Below, one piece after another: positions 30,718 through 48,988 of a DNA stretch of 64,000 bases (its first letter is position 1; each line of letters starts with the position of its first letter). The translations under genes and the position numbers were made by a program. The DNA lies in the NCBI RefSeq assembly GCF_014750655.1, contig NZ_JABBXD010000007.1, positions 62,001 to 126,000 of the forward strand, given 5' to 3'. The DNA is from Salinimonas profundi. GTDB taxonomy: Bacteria > Pseudomonadota > Gammaproteobacteria > Enterobacterales > Alteromonadaceae. The notes beneath the pieces are model-generated. The model was not told where the DNA came from and searched no databases. It saw nothing but the letters and a program-made list of their open reading frames with translations.

Positions 30718-31803
30718 ATGTATGAAAGTTATTATGGGCTGGATTCAAAACCTTTCCAGCTAACACCGGATCCAGATTTTTTCTTTGCCAGTCGCTGGCA
30801 CAAACGTGCTATGTCGTACTTACAGTACGGGCTTTCGCAGGCCGAGGGGTTCATTGTCATTACCGGCGATATCGGAACGGGCAAAACAACAATAGCCAAC
30901 TCTTTAGTTGCTGAAATTGAAGACGATATTGTCGTGGCGCACATCGTAACGCCAAAGTTGACCCCGGATGAACTGGTCAAAATGGTCGCATCGAAATTTG
31001 AGTTGGATGTTGCCGGAAAAACCAAAGCCGACATTCTGAAAATTCTCGAAGTTTTCTTATACGACCTGAGCAAAACAGGCCGCCGTGCATTGTTGCTTGT
31101 GGATGAGGCACAAAACCTGCCGCTTGAAACGATTGAAGAATTGCGCATGTTGTCTAACTTTCAGGAGTTTGGAAAGCCGCTTCTTCAAAGCTTCCTGTTA
31201 GGTCAGGAAGAGTTGCAGCCTATTCTGCGTGCACCCAATATGGAGCAATTTCGTCAGCGCATCGTCGCATCATGTCACCTTGCACCGCTTACCCTGGAAG
31301 AAACGAAGGAATATATTGAGTTCCGACTGCATCATGCAGGTTGGAATGGTAGCGCATTATTCAGCGACGATGCCTACGGTCGTATTTACAAATTTACTCG
31401 TGGTGTTCCCCGTAAAATCAATACATTGATGGATCGAATTCTTTTGTTCGGCTTCCTGGAAGAGCTGGAAACGCTAGATGGCGATGCCGTTGATTCTGTC
31501 ATCAACGAGGTTAGTGAAGAGATGTTTTTGCCTGAGACACCCACTCCAGAAGAGCAGGAGGCTGTTGACGAAGAGCAATATGAAGCATCTGTGGGCACTG
31601 GTGTGCCGCATAAGCCGAAGAAGAAACTTATGACACCTAATGGCAATGAAATACAGGATGCGGAATATTATAAGGCTATGCTAAGTGAATTGGTTGATGC
31701 GTTGGACGATGCTATTAGTCATAAGATCAAGCTGACGCAATATATCGACAAACTTTTAAAGAAAAAATATAAAACGTATGTTCGATTGAAAGAAGATGAC
31801 TAA
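30718..31803 (+). CDS. XrtA/PEP-CTERM locus ExeA-like ATPase
   Basis: This 361-residue P-loop ATPase has Walker A GDIGTGKTT (50-58) and Walker B LLLVDEAQN (125-133). The opening MYESYYGLDSKPFQLTPDP, with FFFASRWHKRAMSYL following, is the signature of the secretion-ATPase family linked to PEP-CTERM/XrtA loci (TIGR03015-like). It is ExeA/GspA-related and thought to drive or regulate assembly or export of the polysaccharide or sorted proteins; its exact role is unproven. The C-terminal 90 residues are charged and partly coiled-coil. It marks the left end of the locus and lies 134 bp upstream of the PEP-CTERM gene. Confidence 0.9.
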   Translation: MYESYYGLDSKPFQLTPDPDFFFASRWHKRAMSYLQYGLSQAEGFIVITGDIGTGKTTIANSLVAEIEDDIVVAHIVTPKLTPDELVKMVASKFELDVAGKTKADILKILEVFLYDLSKTGRRALLLVDEAQNLPLETIEELRMLSNFQEFGKPLLQSFLLGQEELQPILRAPNMEQFRQRIVASCHLAPLTLEETKEYIEFRLHHAGWNGSALFSDDAYGRIYKFTRGVPRKINTLMDRILLFGFLEELETLDGDAVDSVINEVSEEMFLPETPTPEEQEAVDEEQYEASVGTGVPHKPKKKLMTPNGNEIQDAEYYKAMLSELVDALDDAISHKIKLTQYIDKLLKKKYKTYVRLKEDD

Positions 31804-31805
31804 TG

Positions 31806-31838
31806 TCTGAAAATTTTACACGGTCTGTAAAATTCAGA
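31806..31838. promoter_or_regulatory. Inverted-repeat operator candidate upstream of the PEP-CTERM gene
   Basis: A 9-bp inverted repeat, AATTTTACA (31812-31820) and TGTAAAATT (31826-31834), has a 5-nt CGGTC spacer. It is extended by TCTG/CAGA on each side. It is 37 bp upstream of the -24 element and lies 3 bp past the ATPase stop codon. The distance suits a sigma-54 enhancer-binding site. A weak terminator reading is possible, but there is no T-run. Confidence 0.5.
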
Positions 31839-31870
31839 AATAAAAGCTTAAAAATTAACAGGTTAAAAAT

Positions 31871-31886
31871 TGGCCTATAAATTGCT
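31871..31886 (+). promoter_or_regulatory. Sigma-54 (-24/-12) promoter of the PEP-CTERM gene
   Basis: TGGC (31871-31874) and TTGC (31882-31885) are present, with GG and GC separated by exactly 10 bp, matching the RpoN consensus TGGCAC-N5-TTGC. The predicted transcript start is about 31897, some 40 bp before the ATG. Sigma-54 control of PEP-CTERM genes through PrsK/PrsR is known from other bacteria. Confidence 0.62.
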
Positions 31887-31937
31887 CAGCGATTAACCAG
31901 AAGTAGTTGTAGTATCAATTGTAGTGAGAGGTCACTG

Positions 31938-32807
31938 ATGAATGTACTGAGCAAGGTAGTTTTAGGATCAATGTTAGTAGGGGCAGCATGGACGTCGCAG
32001 GCTGCAATGTGCGGTGTCAGTGATGTACAAATCACCGAAATACAAGTTTTGGACGGAAGTGCTGCTGAGCAACTTGCTACGCCGTTAAATGCAACTGAAT
32101 GTGTTGGTTCGTTTACAGGAAACAATAGCTCGTTCACAAAGCCTGTAGATAATTTAGGCTATAAAGATGATGGCTGGTTCAACGTTGATAGCTATAACGG
32201 ATGGTGGGATACGCCTGGCGTTTTCGTAGAAGATGACGCGCTGCAAAACCTTCAGGGCAAAGGTGAAATCGACCCAGGTTGGATTTATGTGGGTAAAGCT
32301 GAAGCCGACAGTGGTTTTAGTTTCAATGGCGCTACCATGGATAACGGCGACACGTCTTATACCTTTCTTGACTCGCTGCTGACCATTAGCTGCCCAACAC
32401 AGGAAGATGGAATCTGTGACGACGCATCAAGTGGTACCTTCAGCTGGACGCCTCCTGCTACTAACCCTGACGCGCTCATGGAGCTGCTGGGCGGTGAGTT
32501 TTTTGACAAAGTGGGCATCGTATTTAAAGCTGCTACACAGTTCGTTATTTACGAGTTTGATTTGAAAGAGCTTGGTTTAAATCCGGTGTATGACGGTGAC
32601 CCTAACTATGCGTTTAAGGGGACCTGGGATGTAAGTCAAACGTTGGTGAAGACTAACAAGAATGACAAAACCGTTTCTCAGGGGCTGTCTAATGTGACTG
32701 TGTGGGCTCGTGACCCGGCTGCAATCGTTGATGTACCGGCACCTACAACTTTAGTGCTAGTTTTATTTGGGTTAGCACTAGTAATTCGTAGACGATTCAT
32801 GCAATAA
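31938..32807 (+). CDS. PEP-CTERM sorting-domain surface protein (exosortase substrate)
   Basis: This 289-residue secreted protein has a signal peptide (about 1-23, ending SQAAMCG) and a C-terminal sorting signal at 266-289: VPAPTTL, a hydrophobic helix LVLVLFGLALVI, then RRR. This is the VPxPTT variant of the PEP-CTERM motif recognised and processed by XrtA. Between them lies an acidic, cysteine-containing ectodomain with four to six cysteines and no recognised fold. It has GAGAGG upstream of the ATG and a sigma-54-type promoter. It is the only PEP-CTERM protein in the window, and its function is unknown. Matrix or surface association is inferred. Confidence 0.88.
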   Translation: MNVLSKVVLGSMLVGAAWTSQAAMCGVSDVQITEIQVLDGSAAEQLATPLNATECVGSFTGNNSSFTKPVDNLGYKDDGWFNVDSYNGWWDTPGVFVEDDALQNLQGKGEIDPGWIYVGKAEADSGFSFNGATMDNGDTSYTFLDSLLTISCPTQEDGICDDASSGTFSWTPPATNPDALMELLGGEFFDKVGIVFKAATQFVIYEFDLKELGLNPVYDGDPNYAFKGTWDVSQTLVKTNKNDKTVSQGLSNVTVWARDPAAIVDVPAPTTLVLVLFGLALVIRRRFMQ

Positions 32808-47533: not shown

Positions 47534-48988
47534 ATGGACACATCTGGTTTTTTCTCGTCTGTCAGCTTGAAAGCGCTGGCGATTATCATTGCGGTACTGG
47601 TCATTACTGGTTTGGCCGTCCCTGATACCTACCTGACCTTACACACTCTCTGGAGTAAAAATAACGAAACGTATTCCCACGGCTATATTTTGCTGATGTT
47701 CGTGATTTACGTTTTGGTGACAGATTTTCGCTGGCAGAAATTTTCGCCATCATTCTGGCCGGTGCCACTGGCACTGGGAGCCGGTTTAGTCTGGCTTGCG
47801 GCCAATGCTGTTCAGGTCATGTTGCTACAAACGCTGGTGTTACCGGGCGTGTTGTGGTGCGCGCTGGCCGCTATGGTGGGTATTAAAAATAGTTTTAAGA
47901 CACTGGTACCGGTACTGTCGCTGTATCTGGCGTTACCCATCATGGACGTACTGATTGTACCGCTTCAGAATCTGACCACCTGGGTCAATACCAAACTCAT
48001 TCATGCCGTGGGAATAACCGCGTTTATTGATGGCTATGATATTCATATGCCCTATGGTGTGATGCGCATTGCCCATGGCTGCGCCGGACTCAATTATCTG
48101 CTGGCGGGCGTGTGTCTTGGAGTATTTTATGCCTACCTGAACCTGCAAAAGTTGTCTCTGCAGCTGCGTGCCGTGGCGCTCATTGTACTGCTCTCGCTGG
48201 TCGGCAACTGGATTCGGGTATTTTTACTGATTCTGATTGGTTATGAATCAAAAATGCAAAGCGAGCTGGTTTACGAGCATGGTTTCTTTGGCTGGGTCAT
48301 TTTTGCCATTCTGGCTGTGTTTTTCTTCTTCTATGCTAAGCGGCTGGAGAAAAAAGATGGGGAGTTTACCGGTAGCGGAACCAAACCCGACCTGAAGATA
48401 ACCGGTAAAATGGCAGGCGCACTCATTGCTACGATGGTCGCGTTCGCTGCGCTACCGGTCTGGTGGAATCAAAGTAATAATCAGGAAAATCAGGGTAACC
48501 TCACTGTCAAGTTGCCGCCATCACTGGCAACGATGAGCGCAGCAAAGAATGATTTATCCCGCATCGGCGTGAAATATGAGGGGCATGATTTCAGTCAGGT
48601 GTTCAACGGGCGTCAAACCAATTACCGAATGACGCTGGTCATTGCGTCTTATGTCAAGCAAGCGCAGGGCAAAGAGCTTATCTATTATGCGAATCAGCCC
48701 GCGGCGGGGGTGGCTGGTAAAGTTAAAATAACTGTCGGCGATAATCCGGTCAATGCGGCCCTGACGCGGCGCGGGCAAGTGGTCTTCTGGGTGTACAGAA
48801 TTGGCGATGAGGTGGTTACCTCCGAACTGGATGGAAAACTGGCGCAGTTAAAGCAAATATTCAGTTCGCCGATAGCCAGCGCCGTTATACTACAGGTGGA
48901 CTGCCGCGGTAAGTGTGGCGACCCTGAGGAAGTGGCCCGGGCATTGACGCCGCAAATTGAAGCACTCTACAGCACAAAGGTAAACTGA
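47534..48988 (+). CDS. xrtA: Exosortase A fused to EpsI domain
   Basis: This 484-residue membrane protein is the exosortase that processes PEP-CTERM proteins at the membrane. The N-terminal exosortase part (1-270) has multiple helices with the catalytic triad visible: C183 (AHGCAGLNYL), R228 (GNWIRVFLL) and H249 (YEHGFFGW). After a linker and one more helix (about 293-311) the C-terminal part is an EpsI/DUF3485-like domain (about 320-475), here fused rather than encoded as a separate gene. The exosortase cleaves the PEP motif; the EpsI part is thought to assist polysaccharide export, unproven. The stop shares one base with the next start (TGATG). Confidence 0.93.
   Translation: MDTSGFFSSVSLKALAIIIAVLVITGLAVPDTYLTLHTLWSKNNETYSHGYILLMFVIYVLVTDFRWQKFSPSFWPVPLALGAGLVWLAANAVQVMLLQTLVLPGVLWCALAAMVGIKNSFKTLVPVLSLYLALPIMDVLIVPLQNLTTWVNTKLIHAVGITAFIDGYDIHMPYGVMRIAHGCAGLNYLLAGVCLGVFYAYLNLQKLSLQLRAVALIVLLSLVGNWIRVFLLILIGYESKMQSELVYEHGFFGWVIFAILAVFFFFYAKRLEKKDGEFTGSGTKPDLKITGKMAGALIATMVAFAALPVWWNQSNNQENQGNLTVKLPPSLATMSAAKNDLSRIGVKYEGHDFSQVFNGRQTNYRMTLVIASYVKQAQGKELIYYANQPAAGVAGKVKITVGDNPVNAALTRRGQVVFWVYRIGDEVVTSELDGKLAQLKQIFSSPIASAVILQVDCRGKCGDPEEVARALTPQIEALYSTKVN

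Follow-up and report, generated by a model that had tools for sequence, protein, structure and literature searches.

The window analysed here is a 64,000-nt stretch of the Salinimonas profundi genome (contig C7, positions 62001-126000). It contains an exopolysaccharide locus of the XrtA type, with genes for a TIGR03015 ATPase, the sugar transferase EpsB_2, an export protein and a chain-length protein, and with further genes for a tyrosine autokinase, a deacetylase and a FemAB-like protein. An exosortase-like protein is encoded at 47534-48988; it scored above the cut-off of TIGR02602 and below that of TIGR03109. We focused on the ATPase gene, the PEP-CTERM gene downstream of it and the DNA in between, where the following features were found.

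30718..31803, + strand: upstream gene, encoding the XrtA/PEP-CTERM system-associated ATPase (TIGR03015, 359.7 bits; cut-off 324.5)
31804..31820, + strand: predicted PrsR-binding box TGTCTGAAAATTTTACA, 17 nt, TGTC-N7-TTTACA (TGT-N11-ACA), conserved and fitting motif 1 of the PEP-CTERM promoters
31812..31834, no strand assigned: inverted repeat AATTTTACA-CGGTC-TGTAAAATT (arms at 31812-31820 and 31826-31834 around the spacer CGGTC); the left arm lies inside the box and the right arm is apparently incidental
31853..31865, + strand: IHF-like site AATTAACAGGTTA, matching 8 of the 9 specified positions of the IHF consensus, WATCAANNNNTTR, at a fixed position relative to the -24 element
31870..31886, + strand: -24/-12 sigma-54 promoter TTGGCCTATAAATTGCT, with a conserved GG-N10-GC core
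31897, + strand: predicted transcription start, placed from the -12 GC
31926..31931, + strand: likely ribosome-binding site GAGAGG, by eye
31938..32807, + strand: PEP-CTERM protein gene, 289 aa, assigned from TIGR02595 and PF07589 profile scores
32730..32795, + strand: C-terminal sorting signal with the variant VPAPTT in place of VPEP (PF07589 at residues 265-285, TIGR02595 at residues 266-286)

The 289-aa protein ends in VPAPTTLVLVLFGLALVIRRRFMQ. Against TIGR02595 (cut-off 16), the whole protein scored 15.3 bits, just under the cut-off, whereas the tail alone scored 20.7 bits and the genome scan gave 19.7 bits, both over it; PF07589 gave 18.5 bits, under its own cut-off of 20.7. We regard the predicted PEP-CTERM signal as weak, yet acceptable. 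The variants VPAP, VSAP or VSEP also occur among other PEP-CTERM proteins of the same genome and genus. Genome-wide, TIGR02595 matched 17 times at an E-value of 1 or less, and 13 of these matches exceeded the curated cut-off. A single one of the 17 (C7:94733-94795) lies inside the window, for which the description of this gene as the only PEP-CTERM gene therefore holds. A related-locus search using the PEP-CTERM protein found no relatives; among 60 genomes, 7 had a match, its own genome included, and strong relatives (62-88% identity) were limited to 3 other genomes. The ATPase, used as a query, retrieved 80 related loci, some of which are truncated at contig ends. Conservation of the PEP-CTERM gene next to the ATPase is thus limited, a relative of its product being present in 2 of these 80 loci: L117, from Salinimonas chungwhensis, where it lies downstream of the ATPase, and L183, where a weak relative (31%) precedes it.

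The initial annotation had described, ahead of this gene, a TGGC/TTGC element with GG-N10-GC spacing and, further upstream, a 9-bp inverted repeat with a 5-nt spacer. Both are present in the DNA. The promoter core is exact, with GG at 31872-31873, GC at 31884-31885 and ten bases in between, and the genome encodes rpoN; the repeat ends 36 bases ahead of the T of TGG (31871). We compared the window with three orthologous promoters, those of G004, G009 and S. chungwhensis. TTGGCC and TGCT of the promoter were invariant, as were GGTTAA in the region of the IHF-like site and, upstream, TGTC and TTTACA, seven bases apart. The box so delimited begins at 31804, the very next base after the ATPase stop codon (31801-31803) and two bases ahead of the interval first reported, and the end of its TTTACA lies 49 nt from the -24 element. 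The element, box plus promoter, precedes 10 of the 17 PEP-CTERM genes of the genome (the window gene and nine others), a count that admits one-base departures in box or promoter. The remaining 7 are without a recognisable element: L071, L078, L079, L082, L083 and L084 showed no box, and L076, with TTTACA at 29 nt and no TGTC, was left out of the count.

The arrangement extends well beyond this genome. The composite pattern TGTC-N7-TTTACA-N{44,74}-TGG-N9-TGC had 187 matches, distributed over 43 of the 60 related genomes searched, and its reversal had 4. In the phylum sample, 36 of 299 genomes had a match to the composite pattern. Analysis was carried out on the matches listed, which are 150 of the 187 and come exclusively from the window's genus; re-scanning of the retrieved pieces gave 161 sites, and 150 after duplicates had been merged. 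A complete downstream ORF followed 136 of the 150, and 120 of these 136 ORFs ended in a PEP-CTERM-like tail as judged by simple ad hoc rules (96 by the strict rule and 24 by the loose one). Of the other 30, 16 had a different tail, 8 had no ORF reaching 80 aa, and in 6 the ORF ran off the end of the piece. The listed sites cannot be treated as independent, since the ORFs at 142 of them represent 75 protein families.

These findings bear on three other readings of the region. Ordinary sigma-70 transcription, with the -24/-12 match arising by chance, appears extremely improbable: there is indeed a 9/12 sigma-70-like match at 31855-31883, but the scanned region has 3 such matches against 2.6 expected from shuffles, while TTGGCC and TGCT are kept unchanged in the window and the 3 orthologs. 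A sigma-70 promoter was rejected, its matches being at about the shuffle expectation. We considered the possibility, put forward in the initial annotation, that the inverted repeat as a whole is the enhancer-binding-protein site. Activators of the PrsR type bind dyads as dimers, and TTTTACA-N5-TGTAAAA is clearly palindromic and lies at a plausible distance from the promoter. It is moreover a real palindrome in this strain, since its RNA fold beats most shuffles (z -3.44; 2 of 200 equally good). Yet, the closest ortholog, that of G004, whose protein is 88% identical, does not have the right arm intact, and among the matches listed TGTAA follows behind a 5-nt spacer at 1 of 150 sites and anywhere within 10 nt at 4 of 150. 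The exact dyad occurs once in the 4.07 Mb genome, at this locus, and with up to 2 mismatches it was found at 28 genome places against 41 for the reversed control, which is no enrichment. The conserved half-sites, TGT-N11-ACA, sit one arm further upstream. On these counts the repeat was rejected as a conserved enhancer, and it is very improbable that the whole dyad is what the activator recognizes. Conservation covers the 17-nt TGTC-N7-TTTACA box at 31804-31820 and the promoter, and leaves out the repeat's right arm. Likewise, the expected recurrence at PEP-CTERM genes of the genome was seen for box and promoter but not for the exact dyad.

The repeat could also act as an RNA hairpin, terminating or protecting the upstream ATPase transcript, a role that we consider very improbable. 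Its location after the stop codon and its fold score agree with such a role, and the box of G009 is overlapped, as judged by eye, by a hairpin that is GC-rich and has a T-run. The stem in the window is, however, A+T-rich and without a T-run, the repeat is absent from the terminator-like listing, and it is not conserved in G004. As an intrinsic terminator it was rejected, given the A+T-rich stem, the missing T-run and the lack of terminator-like character.

The factors that would act on the box and the promoter are all encoded outside the window. PrsR (TIGR02915, 711 bits; cut-off 502.6) and PrsK (TIGR02916, 588.5 bits; cut-off 300) are products of adjoining genes on contig C5, both over the curated cut-offs; RpoN (518.8 bits) is encoded on contig C4 and IhfA on contig C1. 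No match of the PrsR model was found on contig C7, in keeping with the absence of PrsR from the window in the earlier proposal, by which PrsK and PrsR would act in trans. Predicted RpoN dependence and control by PrsK/PrsR in trans appear well supported by the conserved -24/-12 element, the PrsR-type box and the presence of prsK-prsR, rpoN and ihfA in the genome. The regulatory proposal of the initial annotation was thus partly supported; it was probably right in kind and wrong as to the bases of the enhancer, for which the box gives a corrected place of predicted activator binding. Neither the IHF-like site nor the uneven box-to-promoter spacing described below figured in that annotation.

A pair of motifs upstream of PEP-CTERM genes, motif 1 and motif 2, with predicted control by PrsK/PrsR, was described by Haft et al. 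2006 (PMC1569441). The box matches motif 1 as the text of that paper describes it, apart from the logo: it is 17 nt long and its 3' end is TTTACA. The order of elements is also shared, the box being followed by -24 (GG) and -12 (GC) and a PEP-CTERM gene, and so is the presence of PrsR and PrsK in the genome; the 49-nt spacing of the window falls inside the published range of 32-92 (mean 62.8, SD 10.6) (PMC1569441). The intergenic region differs, as it spans 134 bp here, with the box abutting the upstream stop codon, and over 200 in most of the published cases (PMC1569441). A second relative is pepA of Aquincola tertiaricarbonis RN12, an RpoN1-dependent PEP-CTERM gene with a mapped start, which likewise has an RpoN-type -24/-12 element, a mention of an upstream enhancer and prsK-prsR in its genome (PMC9850573). 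Its -12 block reads CTGCTT, as opposed to TTGCTC here, and its RpoN1 dependence and start were measured (PMC9850573), those of the window promoter being predicted. The gene at 31938 would become a member of the regulon proposed in 2006; the literature that we found contains few tests of that regulon's activator.

The distance between box and promoter was not distributed evenly. Taken as the distance between the end of TTTACA and the initial T of TTGG, with 43-73 nt permitted by the pattern, the spacings of the 150 listed sites fell at 47-52 (52 sites), 58-64 (90 sites) and 71-73 (6 sites), with 2 elsewhere (44 and 46); none of the 150 was at 53-57 or 65-70. The periodicity statistic was 0.82, compared with a maximum of 0.36 over 2000 uniform draws, and the clusters around 49, 61 and 72 nt contained 32, 49 and 6 of the 75 protein families, respectively. 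A search at longer distances gave 26 matches: 12 at 71-73, 9 at 81-86 and the remainder at 66, 78, 92, 93 and 95. Six of the 12 at 71-73 were already within the 150, and 3 were copies of one sequence, the first example of which (L264) lacks a PEP-CTERM ORF. The outer clusters (71-73 and 81-86) are less sure, because these matches are few and the control gave 5 against the 26. At shorter distances, 12 matches (control, 3) were scattered, 3 of them at 39-41.

The cluster means were 49.4, 61.1, 72.0 and 83.7, corresponding to a mean step of 11.4 nt and to a step of 11.7 nt between the two large clusters. The helical repeat of B-DNA is 10.5, so that simple B-DNA phasing does not explain the step. 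When pairs of homologous downstream genes were compared, the differences in spacing were 0-3, 8-15 or 21-23 nt, with no pair at 4-7 or 16-20 nt; one family of 21 related genes had spacings of 49-50, 60-63 and 71. This points to changes of roughly whole turns within related promoters. Outside the genus, in other genera and families, 59 phylum-sample rows, counted irrespective of the downstream gene and against 6 for the reversed control, kept the same clusters in blurred form. Rows falling in the gaps, at 53 (two), 55, 65 (three) and 67, were all retained.

We also aligned the promoters of the two large classes, in whose profiles the pattern itself fixes TGTC, TTTACA, TGG and TGC. The 48-52 class (n = 51) showed a block W-A-T-C-A-A-N4-T-T-A before the -24 element in one register, 18 bases ahead of the T of TGG, and in the 58-64 class (n = 90) the same block stood one base further up. 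In forward orientation, 23 of the 51 promoters of the first class and 19 of the 90 of the second had an IHF-like site there (at least 8/9, within one base), whereas dinucleotide-preserving shuffles averaged 0.3 and 0.6. Counting either orientation, the reverse one about 30 bases before -24, raised these numbers to 33 and 45, respectively (means of 1.0 and 1.8 in shuffles), or 78 of 141 promoters with an IHF-like site at a fixed place, against about 3 in shuffles. These counts are descriptive, though the margin is large, because inspection of the profiles preceded the choice of registers and of the reverse position. Given the fixed register of the block, the bend site seemingly keeps its place at the promoter as the box moves.

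The stepwise spacing might nevertheless be set without IHF, by A-tract curvature or by direct contact between PrsR and the polymerase, the IHF-like sequence reflecting A+T richness. In favor of such an account, 63 of the 141 promoters have no 8/9 match at the expected places (the copy in the window has one mismatch), the core is flanked by conserved A/T blocks, and the registers tested were picked once the profile had been seen. It is harder to reconcile with the conservation of specific positions in one register, as in the 42 of 141 promoters with a forward match at 8/9 where shuffles averaged 0.3 and 0.6 in the two classes. We therefore consider an arrangement without IHF unlikely, though deserving of serious attention.

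Taken together, the data argue for an RpoN promoter that depends on an enhancer and belongs to the PEP-CTERM-box type, made up of a predicted PrsR box, putatively IHF-bent DNA and the -24/-12 element (probability about 0.85). PrsK, a membrane kinase, would phosphorylate PrsR, and PrsR would bind the box, centred at about -85. IHF would bend the DNA at 31853-31865, immediately upstream of RpoN-polymerase on 31870-31886, and the bend would bring PrsR onto the closed complex. The ATPase of PrsR would then open this complex, and transcription of the PEP-CTERM gene would start near 31897. We propose that the box must face the polymerase, and that its distance from the promoter therefore changes only by about whole helical turns. 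On balance, we favor the view that PrsR is a one-face enhancer-binding protein and that the promoters of the Alteromonas group form a natural helical-phasing series, strong at about 49 and 61 nt and weaker at about 72 and 84 nt. The IHF site would be locked to the promoter and whole-turn insertions or deletions would fall between it and the PrsR box, the step of about 11.4-11.7 nt reflecting the geometry of a bent loop.

NifA recognizes TGT-N10-ACA at nifH-type promoters; its TGT...ACA half-sites are like those of the box, although the latter is TGT-N11-ACA. Promoters of the nifH/NifA type also have a comparable order of upstream activator site, IHF site (an IHF-like sequence here) and -24/-12. 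Help from IHF at sigma-54 promoters is established in general (PMC7057263). The activator and the genes differ, and so does the distance, the box ending 49 nt before -24 here and the activator site lying about 100-150 bp upstream in that review (PMC7057263). The part that may be new is the stepwise spacing with its built-in IHF-like site. Section 7 of Haft et al. 2006 gives the mean, SD and range of the spacing and mentions neither clusters nor an IHF site (PMC1569441), and our literature searches found no report of either for this promoter family. Stepwise spacing combined with IHF provides a sharp, testable rule for the action of PrsR, and the roughly 150 natural spacing variants could be used to study enhancer geometry.

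The composite pattern appears specific enough to find likely regulon members that are not PEP-CTERM genes. In three genomes (L280, at G000:C1:832245-834089, L233 and L211), a box-promoter unit with a spacing of 62 nt precedes a gene for a long secreted protein, by eye a subtilisin-type protease with DTG and GHGSHTAG motifs. This protease-like gene is a possible non-PEP-CTERM member of the PrsR regulon. Units also stand before genes for proteins of about 200-290 aa without a PEP-CTERM tail (L200, L210, L222, L261 and L341), which have twin-arginine-like signals (RRxF, by eye); the L200 protein belongs to a group of three similar ones. In two genomes (L282, at G000:C7:40736-42581, and L227), a unit with a 63-nt spacing lies upstream of a gene resembling an AraC-type regulator (by eye), whose start is about 200 nt downstream of the unit.

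At G000:C7:137888-139905, three neighbouring, similar PEP-CTERM genes form an array with box-promoter units before them. Similar arrays are present in G004, G009 and G025, and the array members of G009 and G025 belong to different spacing clusters. Finally, as judged by eye, terminator and activator site seem to have bases in common upstream of the G009 ortholog (L035), where the ATPase gene ends in a hairpin, GC-rich and with a T-run, that overlaps the PrsR box (TGTCGGCTTTTTTTACA).
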